Shown in pieces: positions 27,706-59,742 of a DNA stretch of 64,000 bases. Source of the stretch: Kappaphycus alvarezii (Eukaryota; Rhodophyta; Florideophyceae; Gigartinales; Solieriaceae); contig NADL03000465.1 of the NCBI GenBank assembly GCA_002205965.3, positions 718,838 through 782,837 on the forward strand, given 5' to 3'. The notes under the pieces are model-generated. The model was given only the letters and a program-made list of their open reading frames with translations, was not told where the DNA came from and made no database searches. The translations under genes were made by a program, and so were the position numbers. Each line of letters begins with the position of its first letter. The stretch's first letter is position 1.

Positions 27706-27741
27706 CTATACTGTACGGTGCTCCTGTACAGTACAGTACCC
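27706..27741. repeat. GTACA/TGTAC palindrome cluster
   Basis: Contains TATACTGTACGGTG and CTGTACAGTACAGTACC. This is the left-most dense cluster of the motif in the window and lies immediately 5' of the small minus-strand frame at 27,428-27,688. Confidence 0.8.
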
Positions 27742-29031
27742 TACCCTCAGTTGGGTACTTTCGAGATGTCCAGCAATGTGCCTAGCTACAACTAGGCTAG
27801 GGTAAACTCATTCAAGTTGAAGCTGTCCCGCCTTTGTACGACTTTGTCAAAGTGCCTACTCACGCCAAGCACCCGAGCTTGGCCAAGTTTCCCTCCATGT
27901 CCACTTAACAATGCGGGACTCTTAAACAAAGTTCCTCCTCTACATACACCACCGACCGTATCTACCCACTCATATCCCGTACAAGCTTGGTAAAACCCAC
28001 AGCCGCCCATAAAGTCCAAACATTAGATGCCATGGCAATACCTGCTTTTAATATGCTACCGACATCGACCACCTGCTTGTACACCATCTCTGCTATGAAC
28101 AAACCCAAAATGCTCAAAACTCAAGCATTAGATCTCCCACACCTCTTCATTCCCCCTGCCGCGAGTATCACCGTACCCGTAGTGTACACAACGCAAGGAT
28201 GTTGACATGGCATGCCAATTCGTGACCAATGAAATCCCTCGTTCATTGTTCCCACTCATCTACGCGTTCCTCCCGCCCTACTTGTGCATACCCCTCCTAC
28301 ACGCTCGCCCTTCCTTCAACCACCCAACCAATCCACCACGAATTCCTGTACCCCGTCTCAGGGCAAGCCCCCATTTTCCACGTCAATAGCCAAAACCACG
28401 TTGCCTATTTCACCTCTTACACCTCCTGTTTTCTACGTTACCCAAACTTTGCTAACCACTGGTAACACAAATCTACTTTACAATAAGTGCCGCCGCTCAA
28501 ACTAGACCCCTCACCATCTACGAGGACCTACACCTTCCGCACACCTATCTTTGGCCGTACAACTATTCCATTACTTGGTAGAATCGTCTATTCCTCAGGA
28601 GGATCATGTTCCATCGTCCTACTTTCACTGACGCCTGCAAAACAGTCAGCGCTCCCGCCTCCTGTTGCCCTACATCTTTCGCTTTCGCTTTCGCTTTCGC
28701 TTATTTCTTACTCTTACAACGCACAACGCTTCCAGTCAACAAACTTCCATCTTTTACGTCAGCACCAATCTCCCGGAAGAGGCAAATGATTCCTACAGTC
28801 CCAATCTCATCACTTTCCCCATACATAAGTGTCAACGAGGCAAAGAGGTAGCAATCTTCGTCACCATGTCCATCCGCAATAATTCCTCACAGCAAAACGC
28901 CGTCGCGCACACAGTATTGTCATACCATAGCAACCACTAGAGTTCTGCATCACTCGCAACTCACCATTTGCCCACGGCTCGAATCCTTGTTGCAAAGCCC
29001 CTCGCAACAAGACCCCTACATCTAAGTTGCA
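27742..29031. other. Ambiguous coding-like stretch with a CTTTCG microsatellite
   Basis: Pyrimidine-rich plus strand with several overlapping open frames (28,207-28,940) and no recognised family; the frames compete, so no gene is called. At about 28,676-28,703 the hexamer CTTTCG is repeated four times, giving an alternating Phe-Arg or Leu-Ser run in translation. Confidence 0.4.
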
Positions 29032-29633
29032 CTAACCCTCTGCATGCGACTTGATGCTTTTTGATGGAAACACAAACTGCTTAAAAATCATCGATGCTGG
29101 TGTTTCCTCGTACACCTGTCCGGGTGCCAACATCTGATTCTTCAATCCTCCTCGATCATCCTGACCCTCCTCCGACCCGTCCGACGAATCTGTGCTGGCG
29201 ACACATCGCGATGTTGGTTTAACCACTTTAAAGTTCTTACCCAAGTCAACTCTCATCTTGTCCTCCTTTTCCTCCAACGACTCACTGGTTGTCGAGGCCA
29301 AGTGACCCACGTCCCCAACATTGCCATTCTTATTCTCCTTTTCCTCCTCCGTTTCAGTTAGATTCGCTTTCCTTTTGGCATTACGCAAAGCGTCGTACCA
29401 TTCCAGACATTCTCGAGACGTATCGGCATACAAAGCTAGTCTGTTGCTGTAGAGTTCGATGACGATCTTGCACCGCTTGGCATTGCACGAGATAATTGCA
29501 TCCTTAAGGTTCACCGCCAGCTCGGAATAGAACCCGCATCTTGATGGTTGCTGAGCACAGCACCCTGCAACCGCATGTAACGCTTCACGCGACTGCCCAT
29601 CCGCTTTCCTTTCTTACCCAAATATCCCTCCAT
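29032..29633 (-). CDS. PH-domain protein
   Basis: About 200 residues starting at the ATG of MEGYLGKKGKRMGSRVKRYM, which is the first two strands of a pleckstrin homology domain. After one frame break the domain continues with VNLKDAIISCNAKRCKIVIE and LALYADTSRECLEWYDALR, whose tryptophan near the end is the hallmark of the C-terminal PH helix. The remainder is acidic, Lys/Glu/Ser-rich and probably disordered. PH domains bind phosphoinositides or proteins at membranes; the ligand cannot be read here. The break near 29,515-29,520 is repaired by one extra G in GCGGTG. The open sequence before the ATG is hydrophobic but has no in-frame ATG. A TATAATAT element lies on the minus strand at 29,741-29,748, about 110 bp upstream. 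Confidence 0.72.
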
Positions 29634-30151: not shown

Positions 30152-30954
30152 CTAGCGCTCATCACTATAACCGCTTGGGCGGCAAGCCACCTTTCTCTCT
30201 ACCATCAAAGCCGCCTGAGCGAAAAGGCGAAGGACTCGCACGCGACCCCCTTCCATTGCCTCCTCATTCCAATTGTGTACAGCTGGCAACTCCGGGTGTA
30301 ACCCACTAAGCGTCACCCAGCCCTCCCCAACCCTTCTCCGCACCACTGCCGCGGGTCTCCCATTCTCAATCCCATGTCTTTTCAATACAGCCTCCACATA
30401 CCTTGCCAACACATTCACACCCCCTCAGCCTCCTCTGCCACATCCCACCCCGCCCCGCCATTACTGTAAACCTCACTTTCAAACTTGATTCCCTCCCATT
30501 CAAACCTCACGCGCTCCAATCCCGCCCCCTTTTCACTCGCGTATTCAAACCCCTTCCGCACCGCCCCTACCGCATCATACGGCACAAATGCCAACGGTCG
30601 ATCACCCACAACCCTTAATTCATGATCCTCCTTTTCAAACACGCAACGTCGACTCGCGAAATACGCCCCTGCACATATACCCAAGTAACTACCACCCCTG
30701 ATCACAAACTCGCGAATAGCCTCTACACCCTCCCCACCAAGACGATCCAAGTACGGCAAATCTGCACCACCGGGCATTAGAAGCGCGCTCAAATATGGCG
30801 GATGTTTGTGTAGTGATGTTATGAGATTGGATGCAATTACGGTGTGAATGTGAGTGGCGGGGAAATGAAGAGTGTGAAGGAGGGCGTCCCGCCAGGCAGC
30901 GATGGAGGAAGGAGAGGCGCCGGCGTCGGTGTAGAGGAACACATGGCGTTGCAT
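30152..30954 (-). CDS. BPL_N / class I glutamine-amidotransferase-like protein
   Basis: About 267 residues from ATG at 30,954. The fold resembles the N-terminal domain of yeast-type biotin protein ligase, a GATase-like module often found as a stand-alone protein. Key signs are LLMPGGADLPYLDRLGG (residues 58-74), the nucleophile elbow YLGICAGAYFAS with Cys94, and a later VYSNGG ... VLARY ... VVRRRVGEGWVTLSGLHPEL, which is how BPL_N domains end. No biotin-ligase catalytic domain follows, so biotin transfer is not implied; a role in ligase regulation or a small-molecule hydrolase/transferase activity is possible. One frame break at the G5 run near 30,418-30,425 is repaired by a sixth G. GTAC palindromes lie 165-250 bp upstream. 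Confidence 0.84.
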
Positions 30955-31118: not shown

Positions 31119-31203
31119 GTACTGTACATATTGCTGTACTGCGCTGTACTATTGCCGTACAGTAGAGTGTACTGTACTGCAAGATAATGTACTGTACAGG
31201 ACC
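31119..31203. repeat. GTACA/TGTAC palindrome cluster upstream of BPL_N
   Basis: Five or more motif copies, including GTACTGTACA, GCTGTACTGCGCTGTACT, GTACTGTACTGC and GTACTGTACAGG, in 85 bp just upstream of the BPL_N start. Confidence 0.8.
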
Positions 31204-34200
31204 GGTACAATTCACCACTCTCCCCCTACTGTACTTTGCTGTAAGAGTTACTGTAAGATGATAACTGTCGGTGAGGGCTTACAGTTTATGTGCACAGTGA
31301 AACTGTAGGAAAAAGCTTCTGATTAGAGAGAAGAATGGTGAAACCATCGTGCCGCGACAGCAGTTCAACCTAGTTTCATCCAGCTCGGGGCGGATGCCAT
31401 GATCAGTTGGCGTCCTCATCAACCATTTTTGCAGTCGGCGAAAACGGCAGATCACTTCAATTCCCTCTGCTCACGTGACGCTCACTAACCTCATTGCAAC
31501 TCCTCCTGCTTTTAAGTATATTGGTGGAACCATTGGATCTGATCTTTTCATTTCACTTGACATATATCATGCATCTTTTTCAAGCCCAAAACCACTTACC
31601 ACTTTCCCGCAGCCCGTTGCTTGCGTGATGGTTTCCAAACGTCTTTGTAGGCATCTGGTACTGTCCAGCATGCGCATTTCTGGGGTAACAGTTTACGTGT
31701 CATGTAAATACAATTCACACTTGCGCAATCCAGGCCCTCAGAATACTGCAATCGCAATCTCGAGGGTGGTTTGCTTCGTGACAGCTTTTATTTTTCAACT
31801 TTTGAAATTTCTGTCGCGTTATTCGAGCTGAATTGCTCTGAAAGCTTCGATGACGAAAGATTTTCCCAGAGTAGTACATTGTCATTGCAAAACAAGGTTG
31901 CTAGCGTGGGCCAAGCAATTGATTTATTTTCCGATGTGCGATTCAAAAAAAAGTTTCATGATTTTATTGGCTCCCGTGGTACAATAATTTTCATGTGGTA
32001 ATATCAATATTATCGCTGTACTGTTATACTTGTTTCGTCGGGTCGGATCAATTCATGTAAGCGTCACAGCAATACGACAGAACTAAACACATGCATCACG
32101 TCTTGTCGCTCAAATACCGATCGACAGTTGCATAAACGGCATGCTCCTTTTGGCTCTGCTCAGTTCCTGGTGTCCAAGTTGTACTCCCTCATTACACTTT
32201 TTTTGGAAAACCATCCCGTTCTAGACCGCAATACAGGAGTTGTGTACCCAAAACTCGCCAACTAACACTCCTCCCCATCGTATTGGTGCTTCTAAAACAT
32301 GGCTTGTTTGCGAACCCTCTCATAATCCATTGAACAGTTGACGTTAGTGTCACTGCTACGTTGCGTATGCAGGGACACTCTCTTGTGTGCCACGTTACAT
32401 TTTGTCACCCTCAGAAAGGACCTGGCGCTTTGATCCTCAGGTCAATCTACTGGCTAGCCATCTGGTAAAAGCTCTTCGATACCTAGACTTCCAACCGCGG
32501 GAATGTCGCCATTGCACCAGAGCCGATAATTGTGCGACAGAACGCACCGGAGACACGCTTTTTTTTGGTGTCACTTGTACCCATTACACCTACTATGCAA
32601 ATAAGTGGTCTCACTTTTCAAACTATAAAAAACCACAAGCTGCCTCCTTCAGAAAATAGATAACCGCAATCAACGGAAACAATTTCTGCTCTCAGTCCAG
32701 ATAATTATAATAGATAATTGGCTAGTTTCACGGACGCCCAGCGAAAATGTTCAAACCTGTTCTTATTTCTTTTAAGAGGTCTGAGAGTGGCCCTGCCAAG
32801 TCAAGCAAATATTGCCAACTTTACACATGGAACACTTGTAATCTTCACTACGACATCACACGCGGGCAGGTCGGTTGCGACACTAGACTGGAAAGCGCCA
32901 CTCATCCCTTTTTGGATGGGCAGTCTAGCTCCCTCTACGATACAAAGGGTCGGGCCGGTCTGCCAATCTATCGCTTCTGATACAAAATATCTCCGCATGC
33001 TGATATTCAAAACTGCACGCAATATTGATATCAATTTCGTACACAAAACTAAAGGCTACCGATAATTATTGCCACTGGAAGGAGGAAAAGGAGATGGGCC
33101 AAATATAATTTATCAGGCTTATTACTTCCAGTGGGCTAGCCAGAGAGCAATGTCTTTTCTCATGCGTCGGAGCAATAATTATCTGTTTCTAGCCCTCCAG
33201 TTCAATGCGGAATCGATGCATGCAATTTCCTGTACAGTACTTTTGTATACCATTGCAACAACGGTTCAAGAGGGCTACAAAATAATCCTGTCATAGGATT
33301 TATTTCTTGAATGAAACACCGGGCCATGAAACGACAAGTTCTGTGTGGTAATTTGCTTACATAATGCTGAATAACCACATGGGCAATCACAGTACATGTT
33401 CTAAACTTATTGCGCAAAAACCCTTTGAGAGATCAAAAGAGCCGCATTTGAATCCCTTGAAATCTTGGTGAATGCTATTTATTGGCGCTTTTATTCAGAA
33501 AGCGTTGAATGATAGCTTGAGTAATTATTTGCCATTGTATTGATTAGTGCTACTGGAAAATTTAGGAGACCCTCCGAGTTACGTTAATTGCCTATCATTT
33601 AATCTTTGCGTCTAAACCAGACAGAGATGGGTAACGCACTGAGAAGCTTCTGGTCATGTTGAAAGGAAATCGATTTCTACATGTTAAAGTCTCTTTGGAT
33701 TCAGGAACATCTAAATAAATCGTGATGTACTCAAAATGAGTACGAATCGATGAAAAATAAATGTCCCGGTACGAATCTATTCATATTAGTATTTGCAATT
33801 GCCTTTGATTGTTAAAATACTTTTCGAATAGCTCCAGAGTTACTATCGTTGGACTCTTTATTGAAAAGATACCAACATTTTGCAGTAGATAGGATCTGAA
33901 ATTAATACCCTTCTTCCTCAGGAAAGTATAAGTTTGTACAAACAGTTCCTGCTTTGCCATTGTCAGAATTCTGAAAGTTGTGCTATCCGTAACCTACAGC
34001 TTTCATGAGAATTACAATTTCCTGGAGATAACAACACAGACATTTCGATTTGAAGTATTTGACGCAAGATGCAGTGGGTGTTGTAGTAGAAGTGCATTGA
34101 AAGGGTGGAGATTATCCTAACTGTCCATGAAGTCCCAGCTATGGGAAAGTCTATAATTTCGTGGGCCAAGTACTAAAATGTGTTGCATCTCATCGTTCTG

Positions 34201-39021: not shown

Positions 39022-39086
39022 GTACAGTGTAGCAGTGTTTTGTGGAGTGCAATCCTCCACTGCACTGTACTGTATTGTACAGTATT
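39022..39086. repeat. GTACA/TGTAC palindrome cluster
   Basis: Contains GGTACAGTGTAG, CACTGTACTGTATTGTACAG. It lies upstream of the unrecognised minus-strand chain ending at 38,708. Confidence 0.75.
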
Positions 39087-40150
39087 CTAGTGGCTGCCTT
39101 GATTCCGACAGAATCACTCAGTGCCTCAACAGTCAGTTTATCGAAAGACCAGCCGTTATTCCTTCATATCTCGTGCATGTTGTGTATGAATAGTCAATAG
39201 AGGATCTAATCGTTTAGAAAACTTTGCAGCTCTAAAATTCCTCCGAGGAAAAGATAAAGCTAGAGGTTGAGGCGAGTGAAAAAAGAGGAGCCAAGTTGGA
39301 GGCAGGAGGCTTGAAGAGAAAACAGCAGAGTGACGAATGAATTGGAAAGCAAACGTTGCAATGAATTACGGTATTGCAGATGGATCCTTATTTGTATAAT
39401 ACATTTCCCCTGTTGGAAGAGCACATGTGATGTCAGATTTATTGCTCCACTCGTCATGTAGTGGCATTTTTTTTCGTGTGTCGCGCACACAGGAGGAAAA
39501 AGAAAGAGAATAGCAGGGAATGGCATAGTCAACAAGCAAATCAACAAAAGTAGAGTGACATATGTATATTGGGGATTTTCTGACGGAAACCTTTTTGTTT
39601 TCGTATGTAAACTTACAAGACGATTGAGCTGGACCATTTAGCAAGGCCAGCATTCCCAAGCCTTATTCATAGTGAATAATTAGAAAGGGATGGTCAGATC
39701 ATCCATCATACGCAGTTGATGTCTCATTGCAGTGATATGTGAATATGGTGCTATTTTTATATGAAAAACAATATATTAAGCTAGTCAACAAATGGGGGTA
39801 GTACCCTCTCCGGGCCGTTCATACTTTTTTTGACCTGATAAATAGATTAAACGGTGAGAATGGAATATGATTGATTGCGGGGGCAGGAGTAGGAGTGGAT
39901 GAAATTATGGCGTTTAAAGTTTACCGTCAGGGTCGCACCGACACTATCCTATCCTATCATACTCTGGTACAAAGTAAGCCTTGTCAGAAAAATATTTTGA
40001 CAACCACATAAAGTTACCCATACCAACGCTTGTAGGAGAAAAAAAAAAGACTGAATTAAAAGGCAAGGTCCCCGAGGGGTAGCCTAATCAATACTCTTCA
40101 CATCTTGTGTACACTACAAAACTAAACTGAACTGAACTGAGCTGAACTCT

Positions 40151-40214
40151 ACTGTACTGTACTTTACTGTACAATACACACAACATCTTTGTACAGTACA
40201 GTACAGTACAGTAT
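40151..40214. repeat. GTACA/TGTAC palindrome cluster upstream of the GATA gene
   Basis: Two blocks, CTGTACTGTACTTTACTGTA and, about 25 bp later, a run of four GTACA units. It ends about 395 bp before the GATA ATG. Confidence 0.85.
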
Positions 40215-40466: not shown

Positions 40467-40473
40467 TATAAAG
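40467..40473 (+). promoter_or_regulatory. TATA box of the GATA-factor gene
   Basis: GCCTATAAAGAG lies about 140 bp before the ATG at 40,609 and just before the GCAACCT repeats. The position suits a core promoter with a leader of about 110 nt. Confidence 0.5.
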
Positions 40474-40608
40474 AGCAACCTGCAACCTGCAACCTGCAAC
40501 CTCCAATCCTTCCCCTCCCATCCTCCTCCCTCCATCCCTCACCCTCCCCTCCGCATTCCTCCCCTGCGCGTTTACGCTCCCGTTTTCCCCTTGACCCATT
40601 CACCCGCG

Positions 40609-41341
40609 ATGCAAGCGCACCACAACCACTCGGTCGAAGGCCCCATCCCCTCTGCAATCACTCACCGTGCATGTCAAGCATGCGGCACCACAGTCACCTC
40701 CCAATGGAGGTACGGCCACTCTGGTACGTCTTCCTCCCTTCACCCCATCCACCCCACCCCTCACGCCCCGTCGCATAGCACCCTCAATTTCTAACATCCC
40801 CCACCTCTTCCTGCACACCCCACTTTCCAACCACCTAGGAAAAGTCCTACTCTGCAACGCCTGCGGCATTCGTTGGAAGAGAAAGAACCAGACAGCCGGA
40901 CGCAAAAGGCTCAAGCCAGGCCCGAAGCGCGTGCGTCACACAACCAGTCTCACCACACGTGTATCCTCCTACGCCTTGCAGCCCAATCTAGGCACCATGC
41001 TACACAACTCGAGCAGGAATTCCGTCATTCACAGGAATCTATCTTCCTCTTCCTCAGTCACTGATTACCGCCCCGACGCTTCCTCGCGCAGTGCACCGTG
41101 GCACACGGAAACCAAAAAGAGTAACACCGGGTATGCAGGTTGTTCAAAGATGGACATTCGTCTGCTGTGTGCGAGGCAAGATAGTGCACGCCGTAACTTT
41201 GATGATGACACGCATGGAAAAGCTGCCAAGCGTGGTTACAAGTCGCCTATTTCTATTACCAGCCTTTTGAATGTGGCGGATGAGGGTGGTGTGGGCACTG
41301 AGTGTTCGTCGAGCTCGGTGAGCATGACCCGCAGGATGTAA
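40609..41341 (+). CDS. GATA-type zinc-finger transcription factor
   Basis: Two exons, 40,609-40,723 and 40,839-41,341, joined in frame to give 205 residues. The single finger is C-X2-C-X18-C-X2-C: CQACGTTVTSQWRYGHSG, then across the splice KVLLCNACGIRWKRKN, with the expected W-R and N-A-C-G core and a basic tail for DNA contact. The 18-residue loop is the plant-type and fungal IVb spacing rather than the 17 of animal factors. The remainder is Ser/Thr/Arg-rich and without domains. It presumably binds GATA sites in promoters; targets cannot be read. No frame break is present. The intron interrupts the finger loop after its glycine codon. Confidence 0.92.
40724..40838 (+). other. Spliceosomal intron in the GATA gene
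   Basis: A 115-nt phase-1 intron, donor GTACGT and acceptor ACCACCTAG, rich in C and T. Removing it fuses the two halves of the zinc finger exactly. Confidence 0.9.
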
Positions 41342-42359: not shown

Positions 42360-42541
42360 TATGTACAGTACGGTACAAACCACTACTGTATAATGAAGGA
42401 CTGTACAGTTCAGTGTATGGAAAAGGAAAAAACTCTTAAAATTTCCAACAGGTGAGCTGCAAACTGCAGTACAGTCCCGTATGACAGCATTAATTATTAT
42501 GAACTTTTGCTCATGCAGTATTAAACCATTTAGTACAGTAT
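42360..42541. repeat. Spread GTACA/TGTAC palindrome cluster
   Basis: Includes ATGTACAGTACGGTACAAAC, ACTGTACAGTTCAGTG and TAGTACAGTA over about 180 bp. The nearest known gene downstream on the plus strand is WDR83, more than 1 kb away. Confidence 0.65.
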
Positions 42542-42943: not shown

Positions 42944-42960
42944 ATGTACGGTACTGTACG
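42944..42960. repeat. GTAC palindrome pair
   Basis: ATGTACGGTACTGTACGC, an isolated copy upstream of WDR83. Confidence 0.6.
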
Positions 42961-43124
42961 CTGATCTTGACTTTTAAGATCATCTCATCTTGAAAGATTA
43001 AGATCAGATACATTCAAATGTTGATTTTTCCAGCCATTCACAATCTACATGCTGTGCATATATCATAACAGAACCGTAATAGGCAGCCAGAATCGAGCGA
43101 CTACAGCACAGTGCTCTACTGTAT

Positions 43125-43149
43125 GTACTGTACAATATTGTACAGTACC
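43125..43149. repeat. GTACA/TGTAC palindrome cluster upstream of WDR83
   Basis: TGTACTGTACAATATTGTACAGTACC-type dyad, centred on AATATT, about 425 bp before the WDR83 ATG. Confidence 0.8.
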
Positions 43150-43570
43150 TTTCATGATACGTGCGATTTGTAACATTGCACTACAGCACTGTGGCTCTAT
43201 TCATTACAAAAAATGCTTTGATTCCACTCCATACCGTATTTTATTGCAAAGCAAGCACTATTGGCCTGTCCATGCACAACTTCCGTGGAGCATTTCAACA
43301 AGAATCACCGCCTTGCCTTCCTCTCCAATCGCATGTAAAAATAATGAAAATGCCCACAAAACTACCGTGACCCCACCTCTCCCCTACTCCTCATCACCGC
43401 GTTAAACACTCCCCCTTGTCACCGTGCCACACTCCACAAAATCTACTCCCCTGTCTCCCCATCGGCAATTCCAACCCGCCCCTTGCGCAAACAGCCCGAC
43501 AATCCCCATCCACAACAAACTCTCCGCACCATACAACCTCACCATCCCAACCAACCACTTTCCGCCTTGC

Positions 43571-44464
43571 ATGTCACGCCCCGCCCTCCACCGTCTCCAA
43601 ATCTTGCCCCAACAACCCCCGCTCTACTCTGCCACCTTTACCCCGTCCTCAAACCATCTCGCCCTTGCCGGCGCCGACTCTAAAATCACCCTCTGGAACC
43701 CGTACGTTCCCCTTCTTCTCACCACACTGTCAGCCCATTCTCACCAAATCCTCTCTACTCACTTCAATCAAAACGCAGATCGCCTCGTCTCTGCAGGTCT
43801 TGACCATCCCCTTTTTCTCTGGGATCTTCATACATCCACCCTTCTTCGAAAGCTCCGTGCCCACAATCACACCGTCAACCACGTCCACTTCACATCCAAC
43901 CCGTCCTCCCTCATACTCTCCGCCTCATATGATGCAACCGTAAAAGTTTGGGATCCGCGTCACCGAAACCCTCTCGTGCAATCCCTGCCTGCATTTCAAG
44001 ACTCGGTCACATCTGTCTTATCATGCGATACCCAAATCATTGCTGCCAGTGTCGATCACACCCTTCGTATATTCGATATCCGCGCCGCTAATGTCGCAAC
44101 AGATACATTCAACGCCCCTGTCTCAGCTCTTGCCCTGAGTCAAGATCGTCAATGTCTTCTTGTCGCCTGTCTAGACAAATCTTTGTACATGCTGGAGAGA
44201 CGAACCGGACAAATCCTCTGCAAGTATTCTGGCCATCGCAACACTAACTACTCTATTGATTGCGCTTTTTTGGCAGATGATTCCGCTGTTCTGTCTGGTT
44301 CAGAGGATGGAAACTTGTATCTGTGGCAGCTTGATGGTTCCAACCAGCCCGCAACTACTGCCGCCATGGGCTCTGTAGTTGCCGCCATAGCTTCACATGC
44401 CACCACAAACATTATCGCTGCAGCGACCCACCAGGGTCAAGTCTCTTTGTGGGATGTCAAATGA
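43571..44464 (+). CDS. WDR83: WD40 protein WDR83/MORG1-like
   Basis: An uninterrupted frame of 297 residues, close to the usual 300-315. Beta-propeller blades follow one another: LALAGADSKITLWNP, then ADRLVSAGLDHPLFLWDLHT, LILSASYDATVKVWDPRH, IAASVDHTLRIFDIR, LLVACLDKSLYMLERRTGQI, AVLSGSEDGNLYLWQLDG and a last QVSLWDVK. The sixth blade with GHRNTNYSIDCAFL is characteristic of MORG1/WDR83 (GHKNQEYKLDC in animals). WDR83 is a scaffold reported in MAP-kinase signalling and in spliceosome preparations; which applies here is inference. The frame is open 49 codons further upstream, but alignment with the family starts at MSRPALHRLQIL, so that ATG is preferred. It converges with NAA15. Confidence 0.88.
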   Translation: MSRPALHRLQILPQQPPLYSATFTPSSNHLALAGADSKITLWNPYVPLLLTTLSAHSHQILSTHFNQNADRLVSAGLDHPLFLWDLHTSTLLRKLRAHNHTVNHVHFTSNPSSLILSASYDATVKVWDPRHRNPLVQSLPAFQDSVTSVLSCDTQIIAASVDHTLRIFDIRAANVATDTFNAPVSALALSQDRQCLLVACLDKSLYMLERRTGQILCKYSGHRNTNYSIDCAFLADDSAVLSGSEDGNLYLWQLDGSNQPATTAAMGSVVAAIASHATTNIIAAATHQGQVSLWDVK

Positions 44465-44934: not shown

Positions 44935-47839
44935 TCAAAAGCAACTCGCTCTGGGATACTTTGCCCGACTGCTTTCGACGACTGACGAAATCAACTCCGC
45001 TTTCAACCCATCGGTTTTTAGCTCGGCAACTAAACTGCGCAAAAAAGTCACAGGTAGTACATTGCTCCCCGTTCCTTCACAGTGACTCTGCGCAATAGCG
45101 TCACACATTTGTTTGCAAGCCTCTTCTACTGTCCCAGCACCAGCCACTCGTGTCCTTGCCATCCACAACTTACATCTCGCAGCACCAACACGTCGCTCGG
45201 CAAACTCTGCATTTTTCTGCTCATAACTCTCAATGTACTCGCTTACAGTCTTCCCTCCCAGTACTTGCCCCTCTTCATCATACACTCGTTTCTCAACACC
45301 CGACAGACCTTCCTTCCATTTTTTGTCATCCAACTTGGTTGCCAGCATCACTGAAAGTAAAAGCGCATCCGGATGCTCTTTATCGATGCGCTGCGCCCGT
45401 CTAACTGCACGCAACGCCTGCAAATGTTTCTCTTTCTTGATCGCGAGCTTAAACGCCAAAACTTGAGTCTGCATGTGTCCGGCTAGAAACAATTGCATGT
45501 CTCTCATCAACTTTGTTGCTTCGCTAAGAATGGGATCATTGCCCTTCTCTTGCTTGAATAACTCTCGCAGCCGATCAACCCCTGTCGGGTCCATCTCCAT
45601 CCAGCCACTGCTTGCCTTCGGCTTGTTTTCACTGGACCCGGAACCGCCCCCCCTACCCGACCCCTCAGTTGACCCTGAACTTTTCTTGTCCCCGCCGTTC
45701 GCTGCCGGTTTCCCAGAGCCTTTCGTCGGTTTACCCGATCCGTGCTGCCCTTGCCGCTTTCTGTGAAGCTGCTTTTTCCGTTTCGACACTGCCTTTTTCC
45801 GTTCTGCATCCGTCATATCTGCAAAACCAGCAATGTCGGAATGCTCCCCCGAAATTAGTATGCGTTCTCTCTCAGACAACTCGCTAAGCCTCAACAGGCA
45901 TTCTACCATCCCACACGCGGCCCTGGCATAGTATGGGTGGCTTCGAATATGGTCCTCAAAGCGGAGCAGACTTACATATGCACGTAGCGTCACCTTGCGC
46001 AGGCAGTACGAATGAAAGTCAAACTGATCTTCAACTATGTCTGCAAAGTGGCGGTCTACTGCAGTAAATTTCTTCAGCGCCTGCGACAGCTGCCCACAAC
46101 GTAGGTGAGACTCTGCGGCCCCCAACTCAAACCACATACATTGCATATCGTACAATGCCTGAACGCCTCCTGAATCCGCGTCTCTGGTAAACAAGCCTAC
46201 CCAATTCTCAGCTTGTGTTACCATGTCGGCCCTCAACGCGTACTTGGAGCACTTTGTGTTTAGATAACGGTCCGCCAGATCCATGTTGCGTGCTTCGTCG
46301 GCTACCTCCACCGCTCCCTTTAGATCTCCGCAATGCTTCAATATGCGGGCTTTGACGAGGTAACATTCAATGGCTGCCGGGGTATGCGCAATGGCTTTGT
46401 CAATTGTTTCAAGGGCAGTTTCCCTCAGTCCCATGCGATCGTAATGTTGGGCCAAATAGTGCAAAACCCACAGCAGGGTACATGACGGCTCAGCCTCTGG
46501 ATCTCCTATGCCTCCCATTCCAAGGATTTCCCCCACCTTCACGTCAACGTTCGGAATTTCAGTGCCCACCGGCAGTCTGCCCCTCGCCGGATCCTGCAAA
46601 CATTCCAGATACTCTTCAAACAGCTTGCCAACCGCAACTGCCTTACTGACATTGTCATACAATGGTTTGAGGTCCGAAAAAAGGGACGGGACGCCCCTCC
46701 TCAAAAACTTCCTGACATATGCGTCGACTCGCGGTACAAACTGCTCATGCTCGCTGTTTGACAACAAATCCAAAGCCAATCTCGCAGCCGTGCGACTATA
46801 AGGATACCTGACGGTCAAATCATCACAGACGGCAATAGCCATTGCTCTCTCATCCTCTGATTCAATGACAGGGACCTGGCCCAACACCCGCCGCTCCAAA
46901 TTGGCAACCTTTCTCCTTCCGTAATCCTCTGATTTTACAGAGGCGACTGGCAAGGCAGGGACTCGAATGGACTCGAAATCGGCATCGCCATTCGCCTGAG
47001 AGTGGTGCTGCTTCCTCAGCCGTTGAACGGCACAGAGATGCAGGCCCTTTTGATAAATTCTATTGTCCGGATTGATATTCAAGAGGGCGCGCCACTGATC
47101 TGCCGAGGCGTCGTATCTGTCTAAGGCAAGCAGAATGCGTGCTCTGGTTTCAGCGACTGCGAGTCGATCGACAAGACGGTGATTAACGTTGTCCAAATGG
47201 GCGAGTGCACGCTGATAGTCGCCGCTTTCCTCAAGAATCATGTTTTTGTAAAGAAGCAGCTCGGAGACTTCGTAACGATCCTCTGGCTCATTTGACTGTT
47301 TCAAGGTATCCTGATAGGTATCCAAGACACTAACGCAGTGTTATAATTGCCAAGGAGATGAAACGAGAGTGCAAAGCCGATCCAGTTGTTGCGTTGATTA
47401 GGGCGAACGGTAAGCAAAGTTCTCCTAGTCTCCTCCAAGCCATCATAATCACGGATCTGAATCTGCAAGAGGGCCAAATCGCGTAAAATTTGCTGATTAT
47501 CTTTATCGTAACGAAGGGCCTGCAAATAAGCACGTGCGGCATCACGATACTCACGGTCGGATCGGTACAGCAAGCCGTAGACGTGCCAGCAAATGTGAGA
47601 ACGAAGATCGAGACGAAGGCCGCGACGGACGAGCTCGGTAGCCTCTGCCTTTTTGTCGAGTGCGTTGAGAGTGAGACCCTTCATGGCGAGGGTCTCGCCA
47701 TGATCTGGAAAGCGCTTGAGAATAGTGTCTGCGGCTTTGAGGGCCTTTTGAGTTGCTTTGTCTCGTAGAAACGAACGACGGATTTGAAGAGGTTCTGCTC
47801 CTTGGGGGGCAGGACGGTGGAAGGGGGAGTGGGAGACAT
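44935..47839 (-). CDS. NAA15: NatA N-terminal acetyltransferase auxiliary subunit NAA15
   Basis: About 968 residues from ATG at 47,839 ([20 protein letters not shown]). NAA15 is the ribosome-docking, TPR-type scaffold of the NatA complex that acetylates Ser, Ala, Thr, Gly and Cys N-termini. Family features in order: [10 protein letters not shown], then [70 protein letters not shown]; many further TPR helices; a highly basic segment with [15 protein letters not shown] around residue 680, followed by an unusual Gly/Ser/Lys linker; then [20 protein letters not shown] and the C-terminal helices. Two frame breaks, at an A4 run near 47,744 and near 47,315, each need one extra base; the remaining 796 codons are open. 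The catalytic partner NAA10 is not in the window. Confidence 0.94.
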
Positions 47840-48552
47840 GATGTAAATGAAATGTGTCTCGTTTGCAAAGGTGGAGGGCGGATGGGACGAAGAGGGAGGA
47901 AAGGGTAGGTTGCAGAGGGCGGAAGAATGTGAGCAGGGGTGGATGAGTGTTGGGTCGGGTTGTCGGCGTGTTGAGACGAGGAGGGCGCGGGGTGGAAGGA
48001 GGTGTTAGGGGATGAGATTGATGTTGTGAAAAACGAAGGCGCAGGAATTAGTGTTGGACGGGGATGGGGAACATGGATGGATTGGGTGGGAGAGTTGGTG
48101 ATGACAAATTTGTTGTGTATCGGGGAGGGGGCGGTGGAGTCGAGTGGCGAGATGGAGGGAGGTATTTGTCGGCAAGTGGGATTTGCGGATGGGCAAAAGC
48201 AGAGCGGTAATCGGTGGGAGTCGGTCGACGACCGCAGTGTTTTCGCAGCGGGCGTTGTCGACAGCAGTTGCTCGGGGCAAAGTGGAGGAAGTAGTCATTG
48301 CCGGGGCAGGTTTTTCTTGTTTAACAGATTTGATTGGATTTTACAAATTTATCAAATTTTTTGCTTAATTTCGAGGACTGTTTTGTTTTGACTCCCTTTC
48401 GTTTTGTATTTTGAGTTTTTTTCTTTATTTTTCGGAGGTTTGGGTTTTCTAGTGTTGCCATCGGGCGGAATGGAGGGTTCCATTGTGCATTATGGACATT
48501 TGGGACGCTGCAGCGAAAGGAAAGGCGTCAAAGCTTCACACCGACGGCGACC

Positions 48553-49148
48553 TACTGTACTGTACATACTATACTGTACATCCCATGTGACAATTTACGC
48601 TGCCTAAAGTACCCTGGTACAAGAAGAGTAATCAACTGGAATTTGTAACCGCGGATGTCAAGGTTTACTGTATCTTCCGTACTGCATTACAGTTGCCGTA
48701 CCACTGCAACTTACAGAAGCGTGTTTCTGCACAGTAGAACCCTGCCACAGCATTTGTGCTCCAGAGAGTAGGTCAGTATCTGGAAGGAAGAAACTTGATC
48801 TAATTTTGTTACAGTACAGTACTGTACAGTAACTGGATCTAATGTGGTGCCAGTCCCGCATTTCAGGAAACATGAGCCGATTTCATAGCCCAAGATACTG
48901 CACCGTACAGGACTGTACAGTTTTGCAGCTTTTGAAGGAATACCCTGGAGGGGTACGGTACAGGGCATGAATCGCACATTTCTACTGTAGTGAGTAGACA
49001 ACACTTGAACACAGCATGCACAGGGGCGTTGCGTTCCTGGGACTGTACCGGTACCAACGAGGGTAGACGGGTGCCTGCACAGTGTGGCCTGTGCTGGTGT
49101 GGACTCCACACTGTGGTGCAGTACCGTGGAGTACAGTACTGTACAGCA
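48553..49148. repeat. GTACA/TGTAC palindrome clusters upstream of NAA15
   Basis: Separate clusters at 48,553-48,580 (CTACTGTACTGTACATAC), 48,810-48,832 (TACAGTACAGTACTGTACAG), 48,903-48,921 (CCGTACAGGACTGTACAG) and 49,120-49,148 (GTACCGTGGAGTACAGTACT). Confidence 0.8.
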
Positions 49149-50122: not shown

Positions 50123-50272
50123 GGTACAGTACAGTACTGTACAGTACAGTACAGGTTGATGTGGAGGCGGAGGCGGACTGTCCTTTTATTGTTACTGTTT
50201 GTGTGAATGTACCGCATGTACCGGATGGTTCGGTACAGTACCGAGTATTCTGTACTGCACGGACAGTACAGG
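50123..50272. repeat. GTACA/TGTAC palindrome clusters
   Basis: A dense block at 50,123-50,155 that inverts at its centre (GGTACAGTACAGTACTGTAC), and a looser one at 50,230-50,272 with GGTACAGTACC and CTGTACTGC. Confidence 0.8.
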
Positions 50273-50570
50273 TAGAGTATGATGGCGGGTAACGGATTTT
50301 TCAATTGGACAGGCTGTGTACGAGCGGTGAGCATTGGTTGAGCAATGCTCTCCATTCCGAATTGGAGCGTACAGTAGGCATGGATCGACACCACGTTGGT
50401 TGGTCTAGTATCTACAGTTGTTTATTACAGTAGGAAAGAGTCCTCCCCGGATTCGAGGCGCCACATTTTTTCTATTTTTTTGAAACAAACAAAACAAGCA
50501 CTGGTCATTCCGCCACCAAAAAAAAACTATTATGCAGCCAAAGTACCAACGTCTTCTTTTCGCTATGTTA

Positions 50571-50637
50571 CGGTACAGTACAGTCCTGCAAAGTCGTGTA
50601 CAGTACAGTACAGTACAGTACAGTACAGTACCGTACA
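50571..50637. repeat. Longest GTACA tandem run, upstream of Rheb
   Basis: After CGGTACAGTACAGTCCTGC, about seven consecutive GTACA units run from 50,597 and finish with GTACCGTAC at 50,635. It ends about 175 bp before the Rheb ATG. Confidence 0.9.
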
Positions 50638-50812
50638 CGAAAACACACTAGACCCGTCCGCACCCTCCGCTGACCCAGACCACACCCCTCCCCTTTCCTT
50701 TCCCCTTCAGCCTTGTCCACCATCAATACCAATACCAACCAATCCGTCCATTCATCCCGCACCGTTCACCTCCCCTCCCGTCCCCTTTCATTACCCCAAC
50801 CTACCAAACCAA

Positions 50813-51533
50813 ATGCCATCCTCCTCGGCTCCACCCCCTTCTCCCCATCTTCGGAACTTCACATCCACACCATCGACACTGATGACGACGAACCTCCCTT
50901 CCTCGTCACCAAACGTATCGCAATTCTCGGCGCACGCGGTGTCGGAAAATCAGCCCTATCCATCCGTTGCGCACACAACAAATTCGAATCAGACTACCGT
51001 CTCACCTTTCAAGATATGTACACCTGGAAACCAGTCGTCAATGGTGTCCACTACGACGTCTCCATCGACGACACTGACGGTCAGGACGAAAACTCCGAAT
51101 TCGGAATGCGTTATACACCGGTATCGACGGCTACGTCCTCGTCTTTTCAGTTCGTGACCCCTCCTCGTTTCAAGTCATCAAGGCAATTAATGAAAAGCTC
51201 CTCGACACTCTTATGGTTCTTGATCGAAAGGGTGTACGCGAGGTCCCGCGAGTTTTGGTCGGCAATCAAGTCGACATTGTTGACGAACGTCAAGTCCGTA
51301 CACAACTTGCCAATGCCTATGCAAAGGACCAGGGCATCCCCTATTTGGAGACATCGGCTTATACCGCACAGAATGCACAGGCTATTTTCGAAAAGGTCCT
51401 CGAGATTATACAGCAGAATCTTTACGACTCACACATGGATCTTCCTATCGCCCCGGTCCCTGTCCCTACCGACAAGCAACTACCCCCAGTCCAACCCCAG
51501 TCTCCGCCCTCCACCTCGTGTCTCGTGCAATAG
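50813..51533 (+). CDS. RHEB: Rheb-family small GTPase
   Basis: About 240 residues. G1 is GARGVGKSAL, with Arg at the Ras Gly12 position as in Rheb. The effector region keeps TFQDMYTWKPVVNG (Rheb: TIENTFTKLITVNG). G3 reads DTDGQDENSEF where DTAGQDEYS is usual. After a frame break come GIDGYVLVFSVRDPSSFQVI, G4 NQVD and G5 ETSA. The C-terminus is CLVQ, a CaaX prenylation box, so it should sit on endomembranes. Rheb activates TORC1 when GTP-bound. Frame breaks near 50,840 (C5) and 51,118 each need one base. With the first repaired, the ATG at 50,813 opens a 34-residue acidic/Pro-Ser leader that usual Rhebs lack. Convergent with SKI8. Assignment to Rheb rather than Ras rests on the G1 Arg and switch I. 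Confidence 0.88.
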
Positions 51534-51965
51534 CACGCCCTGCTTCTCCACCTGCCACCTACTCATTCACCCTGTACTTCTACATCCCTTGTACAACCTA
51601 TCCCAAATTCCACCATTGCACCATGTAAACTAGTCCCATTCCCTTTCATCCTTCTCTTTGCGCTCGTCGCATCCGGCCCCTCGTCCCGAATCTCCTCTGC
51701 AATCTGTTATCCTCCCCATTCCTCCATCCCATCCGCTGCGCCCAACTCATCCCGCCAATCTGCAATCCCGTCCCTTTGCCATCTATCCGTAAACATTCCT
51801 GCACTTTACTCATTTCCTACCCTCCTCATGCACTCTTCCACTGTAAATTTTCAAACAACCACCTCTACATTCAATCCATTCAACACAAAAACCATGCACC
51901 ACATTCTTCATCATCAACATCACAACAACAGCTGCATCCATCGAGACAGACGCCTCCCTCCATCC
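51534..51965. other. Convergent 3' spacer (Rheb / SKI8)
   Basis: 432 bp of C-rich sequence between two stops; no gene or repeat recognised. Confidence 0.5.
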
Positions 51966-52977: not shown

Positions 52978-53340
52978 CGCGCCAGTTCAGGCGTGGATGG
53001 TGCGGCCGGCGGCGAATGGATTGCCCAAGCGCTGCGGATTCACCGGCGGATGCCTCTTTCGCCCCTGTGGTGGCGTTGAGCGTGCGAATTGCACGCGGAC
53101 GGATCAAACGAAGATCGGAAATTTTGGATTTGTCTTTACATTACTGCGCACTTGCCACTGTACTGTATTGTACTGTACAGTACAGTAGTATTAATCCATC
53201 GGGTTTCTTCCGCATGTATCCTTTGCCACGTTGCACAGAACAACATTAGCCTGATTCGGGCGGCACATTTTTCTTTCCGCTCCTCACCTTGCGCACCGAC
53301 TCGTGCCGAGAATCGTGCCCCGAATCATCGCGAGGTAGAA
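52978..53340. promoter_or_regulatory. Shared divergent promoter of SKI8 and TEN1
   Basis: 363 bp separate the two start codons on opposite strands. A GTACA palindrome cluster lies near the middle (53,157-53,188). No TATA box is seen on either side. Confidence 0.55.
53157..53188. repeat. GTACA/TGTAC palindrome in the SKI8/TEN1 promoter
   Basis: TGTACTGTATTGTACTGTAC followed by AGTACAGTAG. The dyad GTACTGTACAGTAC is perfect. Confidence 0.85.
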
Positions 53341-54346: not shown

Positions 54347-57300
54347 TTAGCTGGCAGACGAGTGACACATTCTAAATTTAAGACTCACCCACCGGCTTCG
54401 GAGCAACATGCTCTTCTCTGTCACCGTTTGGGGGCTCGCTACGTTAGAAGAGTCTTGCTTCTTCTCTTCCGATTTCCTTTTCCGTTTTTCCTCTTCCTCG
54501 GCCCGTGCCTTTTCCATTCTTTCTTTACGAGCCTTGGCTTTCTCGCGGTCCTTGTTCTCCTGTATACTTTTCTCAAACATTTTAAGAAAATCGTTCAGGG
54601 TGCTGAACACTTCTTCAATTTTTGCAGACTTTGGATCTTCACCGACAAGTGTTGCCATTTCTGAAAACGCGCGAAGCATTTCCTCATGAAGCTTCTGAAG
54701 CTCTGTCGCAGCATCCTCTGCCTTTGAGAAAATTTTTCTGGCGACTGCAAAGGGACTCTCTAATGCTTTCGGTTTGTCCTCTCCGCCCGATTCCTGGCTA
54801 GAGACTGCATCACCAGAGCTCAACTCGTCGGGCACCTTCACTTGCCCGGAATTTGCTGGAGTCGGGCCCATTGAATCAGAAGTACTCGAGTTCCGCCTCG
54901 CAGTCTTTGGCGGAGGAGGTGTGCTAGGTAGCGAGCCATTTCCATCTCCAACTTTCAGCTCCTCTTCAGTAATCATCTTGGTAATTTCCTGACCCATCAT
55001 ACTAACAGCCCTAACAAATGTCTTTAGCTCTTGGCGATATCTTGCTTTGAAAGTTTCTTCGCGTCTTGAACATGTGGCATATCCTTGGACAAAAACAGGG
55101 CGTCATTCTTCTGTGATTCCAACATCTGCGTGACAAAGTGCAGCAGAGTCATCCCTCGTTCTCGCGCTTTAGTCTCCGCGAGCTTTTTCAGACCCTCAAG
55201 TCGGAATCCCTTGGCAGAGCCCTTTGTCGTTCCTTGATTCAACACATTCCCAACCGTTAAGATGGTAGCAAGGACCTTCTCAAAACGTTTGGATGAAGTA
55301 ACCTCCCTACACGCATGAATAACATTTGTAAGGGCAACCCTAATCTCTCCTTCAGCTTCATCCGCTGTTCGCATTGTTACCATCGTCTTGATTTTACCTC
55401 CCCAGCGAGGAACTCTAGATACGTATACTGCCAATGCTTCTGCGTGGTTGAGCTTTTCGATTTCCTCCTCTGGAGCCGCGTATGCTTTTGCCATCTCTAT
55501 CTCTTCGGGCTTAAACTGAGCTGCATAAAGCGCCAGGACATTGTCTTTTGAAAGTTTCTCACAGAGCGGATCAAGCGTCCTAACTGCATGTGCAATCTCT
55601 TGGGAGGTAGCTTAATCTTCCGTAGCATATCAAGGTGTTCATGGTGCGTTTTGAATCGAGAATACCGGCCGCCTTAGGCCCATCTTCGGGCTTGAGTACT
55701 AGGTCCCTCCACTGCTGCTTTCGGAGGTGGTCGATTGCTGAAAAGGTCAATTAGTGCCTTCTCGCTCTCTTCTCAAGAGTAAGTATTTCTTGAAACTCGG
55801 GCTTCGCGTACAGAGTCTTTTGTATTCTCACATTTGATATCAAATTCCAGTTGAAACGCTTTGTATCAAGACGTTTCGGCGAGGGTGATGGAGTACTCGA
55901 AGGTTGCACTCCAGGGCCCGGAGGAGGGGCACTTGAGGGACTTGGCTGGTTTTTGCAGGTCCATTTACAGCCGGGGACAGTCCCGGTTTCGTTTGCGGCT
56001 TAAGTTTCCCTATGGGTGGTGGTGGTGGAGGTTTCCGAGGTCCCCCCGGAGGCGGAGGAGGCGGGGTGGGGGTGCACCTGTTGCATTTTTCGGGCCACCC
56101 AAAGGCGGCGAGGGTTTCGGGAGAGTCCCCGCTGGCTTGCGTACCCCTGGGGGTGGCGGAGGGGGAGGAGGTGGTTTCGGTCCACCGGAGGGCGCAGGCT
56201 TCACAGCAAATGCAGGCGGGGGTGGCGGAGGAGGCGGCCCTCCAGAGGTTGACCCGGAACCTTGGGAGGGGCAGGCGCAATTGGCGGTAGTCCACTGCCA
56301 CTGGATCTTTGTGGTGGGGGGAGGCGGTGGAGGAGGGGGACCAACCTTTCCGCCAGATCCAGGAATTTTTAGAGGCGGTGGGGGAGGAGGCGGAGGTCCG
56401 CCTCCGATAGATCCACGTGCCTTTGGTGGGGGGGTGGCGGGGGCGGAGGTCCGCGGGAGCAGTTCCAGGAGGCTTCGGTGGCACGGGCGGAGGAACTGGT
56501 GGGGCAGGTGCAGACCTTGAGCCTCAGGGAGACTAGCAAGATGGTTGGAGTTCCCGACGGGGGCTGCGGTGGAGGTTGGAGGGCCGCCTGGCTTCGATGG
56601 ATCGCCTTGACTGCGCATGACTCTGACTTTGTCGACAACTTCCTGCTGCGAGACGAATTTGCGGCTGGCTCCATCCTCACCTGATTCCTTCGATTCCGCG
56701 ACTAACGCCTGTAGTGCATCGGTGAACTGCTCAAGAAGCTGAGATTCGGACATCGAATTCTGCAAATTGTCAAAGACATCGTTTATACGAAAACGGTCCG
56801 TTTTCCCAGTCTTCTTCACTCCCTTTAAAAGCACTTGCATAGCTTCTTGCAGGACTTCAACGTCCTTTCTCTCCGAGAGGAATTGCCATGTTCCTCCGGA
56901 CGGGCACGGAATCTCGGGACAACTCTGCAGCTTGCGACAGCTTTTCCGCAGGTCATTGTCGTCTAATTCTTCCTCGTCGTCCTCGCCGATGTACTGCGCA
57001 ATGTCGGAAAACCCGTCATCCTCTGACGAGATGTCTGTAGCAGTAGTGTTTGACATCGAGCCTCTCCTTGCCAAAAAGGTCTTGTCAATAACCTGCCTTG
57101 CAGTCTTTTGACGCTTAATCTGTCCGTAGTTTCCTCATTCGCAACCTCCTCCCAGGCCTGCCTAAACACCTGCACAAACCCCAAGGGCATCATCCTCGAC
57201 ATCCACTCCCAAAACCTCTTCAAGCAGCTTTGCTTTCCGCTTATCATCAGACCCCTCAAGAATTCGTTGACGCTTCGCATTCATGTCTCCTCCTGCTGTC

Positions 57301-58535
57301 GCCGCTCCTCATTCTTTCGTCGAATTTCTTGCACAAAGTCGACATCCACTGGGGCAGGAATCGCCTTTAGAGTAGGTGGGGTGCCTTTGGAGCCTGATGA
57401 ACAAGCTCCTCGACAAGGTCAGCCAGATCCGCCGCTCGCGCAATCAAGTCTGCATTTTCCGGTCCGACCATTTTGGCATATTCTACAAGAGCCTCGTCGG
57501 AGAAATCATCGGGTTGAAATCCGTCTGGTGGGAGTAGATCCTCGAAAAACAGTCTACACCAAAATCGCAGTCGACGGTAATCTTCTCATTGACACCTGGT
57601 GCCATCTCAATATCCTTCCAGAGTACACGGTGATAGGGGGATTGCAGGAAGCCGGTGTGACGGGCAATAGTAAACAGTGGTTTGGTTGCGTCGCTATTGG
57701 TAACCAGTGCTCAAACGAAATGAGCAAGTCGCCCGCGATGACCTCATCAAGAACAAAGCTTGCGCAACCTGTACCGATCATAGCGTCATTATTTTCTTGG
57801 ACTATAGTGGCACATTGTTCGCCCTCATTCCTGCCTGCCTGGTAGATACGAATGACAGGGTTCCAGGGTTGATCGTCAATGACGACCTTACCTTGGACTA
57901 GAATCTTTGCCATTTGCAGAGGTCTGACGTTTGGCAGGCGGGATTGATGCGAAGCATAGAGAAAAATCGGAGATATTGGTACAGGTTGGATACATAAATG
58001 TCCTTGATCTGACGTTCAGAACACATATTTGTTTCGACGACGAGTTTCTTAAAGTGCTCAAGGGCGCTTATGGCATTCTCAAAATGGCGGACAAATGTAA
58101 GGTAGGCGCTAGCAAAAAGGGCGATGGCAGTGAGTGGGCGATATTCCTCACAAATCTCGTTCCTGGCGACAATGAGGACAATGTGCTGGGTGCCCGACTG
58201 CATGCCCTTTTGAAGAAAATCGGTGGCTTCGGCGCAGACCTCAAAGATGGAAGAGAGTGGTGGAACGAGATAATACGGGCCGAGATGAACGGTGAGGTGA
58301 TGAGAAGGTCGGGGAGAATATCGTTCATCCAGGGCTCTTCACCGCGGGCACCGACATCGACGACGTGAACAAAACGTGTCTCGCCATATTTTCGAAAGGC
58401 CTTTTGCAACATGTCGAGCATGTCAGAGGCGAACGTTTGCGGTTCGTAAAGGGCGACAAAGACGCCATCGGTAAGTTCCTGGACTTTTCGACCGGTCTTG
58501 GGCTTTTTGTTATAAAATGTGAAGAGGCCTTTCAT
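54347..58535 (-). CDS. Formin with PTEN-C2-like N-terminus (class II-like)
   Basis: About 1,390 residues, frameshifted in many places. Start ATG at 58,535 gives MKGLFTFYNKKPKTGRKVQE, which parallels the opening of plant class II formins. Domains: a PTEN phosphatase-like fold (58,535-57,960) whose HCX5R loop is replaced by LIVARNEICEEYRPLTAI, so catalysis is not expected; a C2 domain (57,913-57,550; GKVVIDDQPWNPVIRIYQAG ... FVLDEVIAGDLLISF) likely to bind phosphoinositide membranes; an acidic linker; an FH1 region with several runs of 7-9 prolines (about 56,460-56,000) for profilin-actin; an FH2 domain (about 55,870-54,600; KRFNWNLI, LATILTVGNVLNQGTTKGSA, KGFRLEGLKKLAETKARERG, FFxTLNxFLKMFE-like end); and a charged tail. 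It would nucleate and elongate actin filaments at membranes. A GTACA cluster lies upstream. Confidence 0.9.
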
Positions 58536-59742
58536 GGTGAGTTAGGAATGTGGGTGGGGAGGGGAAGCAGGATACAGGGTGCGGAGTAAAATTGGGGATA
58601 ACAAAGGGTGATATAGTGTTGTAGAAAAAGGAGGTAGGGGTCACAATGAGAAATGGGCCGTGGGATTGCCACTGACGAGAGTGGAGAGGCCAGCATGAAG
58701 CTGGGATTGGGTTGGAGAGGAAGGGCAACGCGGGTGAGACGTGTTGGTAGATTGGGAGGGTAGGGACGAGGGACGACGGTTGCAAGGGAGGGCGGAAGGT
58801 GGATGGATTCAAAGAATGGAATGAGTTTTTGGGGATGGGGCAAGTGTGTGCAGGTGGGATGGATGGAGGGAGAAGGGTTTGTTGGAGATGAGAAATGGCA
58901 AATGGCAAATGAAAAATGAAAGCGAAGAAATGAGGCAAAACTGCACGAAAAGCTGCATGGGTTTTGCCTTTACACACGTGTTGAAAATACTGTAAAGGCG
59001 TTTGAAAAGCCATGCCAACTGCGGTTAATTGCTGGCACCAGCACCATCGGTTGGATTCATCAGGATTCAGATGGCATTCAGATACCATTCAGAATTTCAG
59101 ATTCAACAGAACATCCACTTTTCCACTTGCCAACTTTTTCCCATTGACTATCGGATGCTGTTGACATCAACCGAATGCAGAGCCCATTCCACTCGGGCCC
59201 CAAATTCACCGCCTGTCACTGTAATGCCAAACCCTGCCATCACAACATGATTGGCCGCATGACCATGTTTGCAACTGTACGCAGTACAGTACAGTACAAT
59301 ATTGGATTGGATTGGTCACGCAACTTTGTGCATCGGTACTGTACTGTACAGTATCGCGCGTACAAGTTAGTATTTGTACTGTACAGTAGCACCTACCGCC
59401 TCGCAAGTCTCAAGTTGCAACACTGCCCGCAATCACCTCGACAGCAGTCGGGGACAGGCTGTTGCCGTCGATTACGTCACCCACGTACCCCCCTAAACCG
59501 CCCGCTGCCCAAGCCAGCCAGCCAGCCATCAACCGCCACATCTGCACCGACACCAACCCCGACGTGTTGCGCCAACCCGCCGCCCCATCCAAGCCCTACT
59601 CCCAATCCCCACTCACCACACGGCTCATCCGTGGTACGCCATGCATGCACCCGCAACACCTCGTCCCGTCATGTTTCTATTGCCACTCTCCTCCACCCCA
59701 TCTCAACACACTCAGTAAACAGTCTCAAAATAGCTTTACGCT
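58536..59742. other. Intergenic region upstream of formin
   Basis: Holds a GTACA cluster (59,277-59,388); open frames on both strands (for example 58,510-59,088 minus and 59,175-59,753 plus) are unrecognised. Its right end is the 3' side of the hydroxypyruvate reductase gene. Confidence 0.5.
59277..59388. repeat. GTACA/TGTAC palindrome clusters upstream of formin
   Basis: Three blocks: GCAGTACAGTACAGTACAAT, GGTACTGTACTGTACAGTAT and TTGTACTGTACAGTAG, about 740-850 bp from the formin start. Confidence 0.85.

Follow-up and report, generated by a model that had tools for sequence, protein, structure and literature searches.

The excision footprint of the Sleeping Beauty transposon is given in two research papers as TAC(A/T)GTA, that is, TACAGTA or TACTGTA (PMC3432063, PMC4378557), and a further account describes its origin as a nick three bases inside the element that leaves 3-base overhangs, which end joining turns into the footprint (PMC7827188). 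A zebrafish relative is described as leaving 0 to 3 bases (PMC7913693). Here we analyse a stretch of 64,000 nucleotides from the red alga Kappaphycus alvarezii (contig NADL03000465.1, positions 718,838 to 782,837; hereafter the window), in which the same seven-base word, TACWGTA (W being A or T), forms clusters, many of them upstream of genes. Judging from the sequence, we consider it very likely that these clusters were left behind by the excision of Tc1/mariner transposons with CAG ends.

The likeness to the Sleeping Beauty footprint, as those two papers describe it, extends to the seven bases, the A/T ambiguity, the TA on both sides, and the net change of 5 bp; the papers treat transposition in cells or tumours, whereas here a single genome carries an excess of about 188,000 words, which are stacked in tandem and are commoner before genes (PMC3432063, PMC4378557). 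The type of scar is already known, and its scale and stacking look new: a search of the open-access literature on the motif and on stacked footprints found no report of such arrays or numbers. If the words are scars, the genome is a readable record of transposon excision, in which this excess stands against at least 101 transposase matches and past jumps become countable per site, per gene, and per haplotype. Landing places, the frequency of excision, and shifts of promoter spacing in 5-bp steps could then be measured. More generally, even a strong and palindromic motif with an upstream bias can have arisen as a scar of mutation instead of as the site of a regulator. Transposon excision is not among the readings offered by the first-pass annotation of this stretch, which was made by a model from the letters alone and proposed a transcription-factor site, a replication or chromatin element, or a promoter-biased microsatellite.

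Form and abundance of the repeated word

The clusters of palindromic GTACA/TGTAC repeats reported in the first-pass annotation are confirmed. The window, which forms the right-hand end of a contig of 782,837 bases in a genome of 336 Mb, contains 39 copies of GTACWGTAC, against a mean of 0.27 and a maximum of 3 in 100 order-1 resamplings of the window; the perfect palindrome GTACTGTACAGTAC is present twice, at 50,134 and 53,170. The genome-wide count of GTACWGTAC that the annotation had proposed as a check yielded 68,583 copies, compared with 2,817 of the reversed control word, and of seven 5-kb stretches sampled at preset positions on other contigs, L024 contained 8 copies and the remaining six contained none. 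The annotation also placed the repeat only to the right of 27.7 kb; this is correct for GTACWGTAC, whose first copy lies at 27,726 with none to the left, but not for TACWGTA, of which 10 copies lie in the left 27.7 kb and 69 to the right, and a word this abundant across the genome does not mark the window's gene-rich half. The left part itself (positions 1-27,700) is mostly AT-richer, carries a Tc1/mariner remnant, and gave no significant Pfam match in the few open reading frames (ORFs) scanned.

The enriched core is TACWGTA, not GTACWGTAC as such. Genome-wide, TACWGTA occurs 236,177 times and the reversed control word 48,188 times, which gives the excess of approximately 188,000. The exact form was examined in a sample of 208,027 bases composed of the window and loci L006-L025, of which L006-L008 had been picked by motif. 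When all 7-base words of the sample were ranked, TACTGTA came first and TACAGTA third, and when words of the form TA-NNN-TA were grouped into 32 complementary classes, CAG/CTG stood far above the others (176 vs 33.8 expected, z 24.5), followed more weakly by CCG/CGG (41 vs 14.6, z 6.9), with the next class at z 3.3. In both, two 3-base overhangs brought together would pair at their outer bases and mismatch in the middle. The spacing is equally strict, in that the excess of TAC...GTA is limited to a one-base gap and then to 5-bp steps, and TA-NNN-TA words show such an excess at the 3-base spacing only. Outside arrays, ACTGTA is doubled (84 vs 42.3 expected), and TGTACA occurs about as often as expected (59 vs 57.0). 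The excess of TACCGTA/TACGGTA (41 vs 14.6) perhaps represents scars of CCG- or CGG-ended elements, or decay of TACWGTA.

Ninety-nine of the 176 TACWGTA sites in the sample are lone, with no other site within 12 bases. Where units are stacked in GTACWGTACWGTAC runs, neighbouring W bases across the genome read AA 6,479 times, TT 6,591, AT 4,169, and TA 3,893, and are therefore identical in 62% of neighbours and different in 38%, where independence would give 50%. A pure slippage repeat is expected to be far more uniform in W, and the arrays are therefore read as scars to which some copying of units by slippage has likely been added.

A second copy of the region and the proposed mechanism

A diverged version of part of this region lies on contig C669, with 85% identity over most of the query, and is probably the other haplotype. 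Alignment of three stretches (window 39,303-51,376, 52,875-53,678, and 58,473-59,867) gave 13,302 identical, 567 different, and 938 gapped columns. Arrays occupy the same places in both copies and differ by 5-bp units and by A/T swaps. Seven of the 13 five-base indels between the copies are exact differences between TA and TACWGTA, and one additional indel of 10 bp corresponds to two units; a random 5-base deletion would mimic the TA/TACWGTA difference about 1.1% of the time, giving a binomial tail of 3e-11. Four of these seven differences (40,078, 48,449, 48,666, and 50,369) lie at lone TAs with no adjacent copy of the unit. Single copies thus change while clusters keep their place, which fits recurrent hits at favoured spots, and a kept site may fit as well. 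No filled site opposite a scar was seen by eye among the long indels listed for the roughly 14 kb of window that was aligned.

We infer that these patterns were made by excision. A transposon would enter at a TA, which is duplicated, and on exit would be cut three bases inside its ends, so that the flanks are left with overhangs that are complementary except for a central A-A mismatch; once joined and repaired, they would read TACAGTA or TACTGTA, with a net gain of 5 bp. The A-A mismatch would account for the freedom of W, as follows from the overhang sequence. Each scar would supply new TA targets, and repeated visits at a favoured spot would build up rows of scars at 5-bp intervals, with W being A or T. 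Scars would be commoner before genes if elements land in open promoter DNA, and would be lost from exons, where a gain of 5 bp breaks the frame; the latter is supported by the rarity of the word in Pfam-supported coding sequence (2 TACWGTA in 18,977 bases, or 1.05 per 10 kb, compared with 9.05 per 10 kb elsewhere in 199,000 bases). We prefer excision as the origin of the clusters because a single known mechanism would account for the word in its precise form, the free choice of A or T, the spacing in steps of 5 bp, the changes at lone TAs, and the scarcity of sites in coding sequence.

Tc1/mariner transposons in the genome

Transposons in which TA is followed by CAG ends exist in this genome. 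The Tc3-type transposase HTH domain (PF01498) gave at least 101 matches, many with open frames, with 150 of 429 candidates scored. One decayed element lies in the window itself (3,739-5,314): at its left end TA is followed by CAGTCCCC, and at its right end CAGTCCCC adjoins TG instead of TA. Its left end has 23 matches, namely itself, the C669 copy, and 21 others including its own right end; of these 21, 17 start at TA or at the base before, and four at or just inside CAG. A search outside arrays in L001-L031 and the window for miniature inverted-repeat transposable elements with TACAG ends recovered only one weak pair (L031, 15 of 20 bases), in a test that did not recover the element at 3,739-5,314 either, its right-hand TA being altered.

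A second, extant family, represented by L034, has inverted ends in which TA is followed by CACTG, and shows a TA target duplication. The N-terminus of the L034 transposase matches Tc3 transposase (1u78_A, E 9.5e-24), and the element thus resembles nematode Tc3/Tc1 in its transposase, its inverted ends, and its target duplication; it differs in that it ends in CACTG, not CAG, and is a user of the sites, not their proven maker. Nematode Tc1 leaves a longer footprint. Of the five copies of this family that were read, three lie within TACWGTA sites and two lie elsewhere; the set is not random, as L034 was picked for its flanking arrays and three others because the match stopped at the end. In 27 of the 40 left ends scored, a number that counts the query's own locus, the match extends beyond the TA into an array by five or more bases; this figure carries selection bias since the query itself contained array bases.

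The CACTG-ended family appears to prefer these scars. We offer tentatively, and at considerably lower confidence than the excision origin itself, the idea that arrays are self-reinforcing landing pads, in which the palindromic, GTAC-rich scar would draw the next insertion and promoters would grow in 5-bp steps. If so, each array would be a written count of transposon visits per gene.

A Tc1-like element at L012:5968-7160 starts with TACAGTGCACGAAACAAAATTAAGGACA, and the sequence after its transposase looks retroelement-like by eye, as if the element were truncated or nested; an ORF in this retroelement-like part (L012:4459-5304) had no Pfam match.

Position relative to genes and competing explanations

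We counted TACWGTA within 800 bp on each side of 16 anchor genes in 164 contiguous kb, 15 of them with Pfam support (weak for Ist1 and GATA) and one, TEN1, named by the first-pass annotation; these genes were picked with the cluster positions in view and not blind, their starts are approximate, and transposon genes (DDE_3, rve) were left out. On this basis 57 sites lie upstream and 6 downstream, where density alone would give 11.5, and without TEN1 the counts are 53 and 6. The window's own eight genes contribute 47 upstream sites and none downstream. The annotation's clusters upstream of BPL_N, GATA, the WD40 gene (its WDR83), NAA15, the Rheb-like gene, and formin are borne out by the site counts, as is the lack of one at the aminotransferase (no TACWGTA within 800 bp upstream); its 'PH' gene gave only a non-significant Pfam match (PH_8, E 0.042). 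At least one upstream site is found in 11 of the 16 genes and at least three in nine, and five genes have none; the upstream bias that the annotation described is supported.

The bias persists among 67 unselected, non-overlapping ORFs of at least 150 aa in the same 164 kb, with 88 upstream and 40 downstream sites and with any TACWGTA upstream of 23 and downstream of 17, although ORFs of this length are often not genes and 34 sites fall inside them. In the adjoining 100 kb alone, 12 of 43 such ORFs have any site upstream and 11 downstream. Within the window the preference for upstream DNA is strong; in the neighbouring sequence it is modest. At L014:5495-6592, a retroelement integrase (Integrase_H2C2, rve) has TACWGTA sites about 0.8-1.1 kb downstream.

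Several observations weigh against an origin by excision. The eight genes of the adjoining 100 kb have 10 upstream and 6 downstream sites, and its 43 unselected ORFs 34 and 19. Six of the 13 five-base indels between the copies are not exact footprints, and two copies leave gain and loss of the 5-bp differences indistinguishable. The CAGTCCCC family looks old, with 76-88% identity at other loci; of eight further ends of this family, four have TA followed by CAG and in the other four the TA or the terminus is altered, and TACWGTA is absent from the approximately 30 flanking bases read at each of the eight. The array-resident CACTG family should not leave CWG, so that neither family is more than a candidate source of the scars. 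The 62% agreement of neighbouring W bases makes some slippage copying likely, and for 36 of the 41 sites a TACWGTA lies no more than 15 bases away in the other copy (27 within 5), as a maintained site might. Lastly, one review prints the Sleeping Beauty footprint as TAG(T/A)CTA, contradicting the two research papers (PMC2874221); TAGACTA/TAGTCTA is not enriched in our sample (15 vs 11.1 expected).

The best-surviving alternative, which we nevertheless regard as unlikely, is that TACWGTA, or GTACWGTAC, is the site of a dimeric transcription factor kept in promoter clusters. The upstream bias of both the anchor genes and the unselected ORFs would be expected of such a site, and an odd palindrome with a free A/T centre is what a dimer would read. 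Conservation between the copies is less clear. In the longest alignment, compared column by column, 14 of 41 noncoding TACWGTA are intact, compared with 1,548 of 2,764 nearby 7-base stretches (Fisher p 0.0065), and once A/T swaps are tolerated the count rises to 17 of 41, compared with 17 of 35 other TANNNTA words (p 0.64, no difference); these counts depend on an uncertain alignment of repeats, in which adjacent sites are not independent. Since 36 of the 41 sites are matched within 15 bases and clusters lie at matching places in both copies, the argument against a factor from low conservation is weakened. A factor does not predict exact 5-bp differences at lone TAs, nor a rule that admits CNG triplets only. 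The annotation's more specific proposal was a new factor binding GTAC, the core of plant SBP-box sites. Matched positions in the other copy are compatible with it, but GTAC itself is not enriched outside arrays, the centre of the word is W between TAC and GTA, and exact 5-bp TA/TACWGTA indels are among the changes between the copies. An SBP site was rejected as the core on the TGTACA count outside arrays, and a genome search for the SBP domain (PF03110), run without a positive control, returned 0 matches. Some arrays may nonetheless have been taken up as promoter elements.

A promoter-biased pentanucleotide microsatellite that changes length by slippage is less probable still, and we consider it very improbable as a full account. 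Pentanucleotide microsatellites share the 5-bp unit and the length variation between two copies, and the agreement of W in 62% of neighbours points the same way. They are unlike the present sites in that here the unit contains a free A/T base, which differs in 38% of neighbours, most sites (99 of 176) are lone, four of the seven exact differences lie at TAs with no neighbouring unit, and enrichment between TAs is strong for CNG only. A pure repeat of this kind was accordingly set aside on the heterogeneity of W and the four changes at lone TAs, and slippage is left with a secondary contribution at most to the clusters that we attribute to excision. That the sites are cruciform or hairpin elements selected for perfect palindromy, for example as replication or chromatin elements, is scarcely credible and was rejected, for although GTACTGTACAGTAC is a perfect palindrome, perfect 14-base palindromes (3,893 + 4,169) are rarer genome-wide than the imperfect AA and TT forms (6,479 + 6,591).

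Table 1 TACWGTA clusters, anchor genes, and the Tc1/mariner element in the window (window positions).
Feature	Position	Strand	Remarks
TACWGTA cluster	27709..27738	.	3 sites
TACWGTA cluster	31120..31255	.	6 sites; upstream of minus-strand BPL_N gene
TACWGTA pair	39068..39084	.	
TACWGTA arrays	40150..40213	.	7 sites; upstream of plus-strand GATA gene; copy number differs in second copy
Two TACWGTA sites	42364..42390	.	42364 site is an exact 5-bp difference from second copy
Four TACWGTA sites	42952..43147	.	Upstream of plus-strand WD40 gene; 43141 is an exact 5-bp difference
TACWGTA arrays and single site	48553..48831	.	Upstream of minus-strand NAA15; exact 5-bp differences at 48666 and 48819
TACWGTA pair	49132..49143	.	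NAA15-Rheb interval; copies differ by one A/T swap
TACWGTA array	50125..50151	.	Five overlapping units; W = AATAA
Single TACAGTA	50370..50376	.	Exact 5-bp difference at TA without adjacent copy
TACWGTA array	50574..50630	.	Upstream of plus-strand Rheb-like gene; W = AAAAAAC in run from 50598
TACWGTA array	53161..53187	.	Upstream of TEN1 (name from first-pass annotation)
TACWGTA arrays	59285..59388	.	Upstream of minus-strand formin; 10-bp (two-unit) difference at 59336
BPL_N domain gene (anchor)	30418..30945	-	Pfam
GATA zinc-finger gene (anchor)	40595..41338	+	Match below Pfam cut-off
WD40 gene (anchor)	43406..44461	+	WDR83 name from first-pass annotation
NAA15 (NatA auxiliary subunit) gene (anchor)	44938..48047	-	
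Ras-family gene (anchor)	50813..51630	+	Rheb per first-pass annotation; start picked by eye
Formin (FH2) gene (anchor)	54350..59088	-	Pfam support 54350-55611; 5' end 59088 assumed
Decayed Tc1/mariner element	3739..5314	+	Inverted ends of ~210 bp; transposase homology 4253-5071

In the Rheb-like exon (window 50,922-51,300), comparison with the L030 copy shows small indels, for example of two bases near 51,014, which leave one copy frame-shifted or reflect assembly errors there. The ribosomal DNA has an unusual look: at L026 and elsewhere, 24 matches to 5.8S rRNA were found on many contigs, with differing scores.

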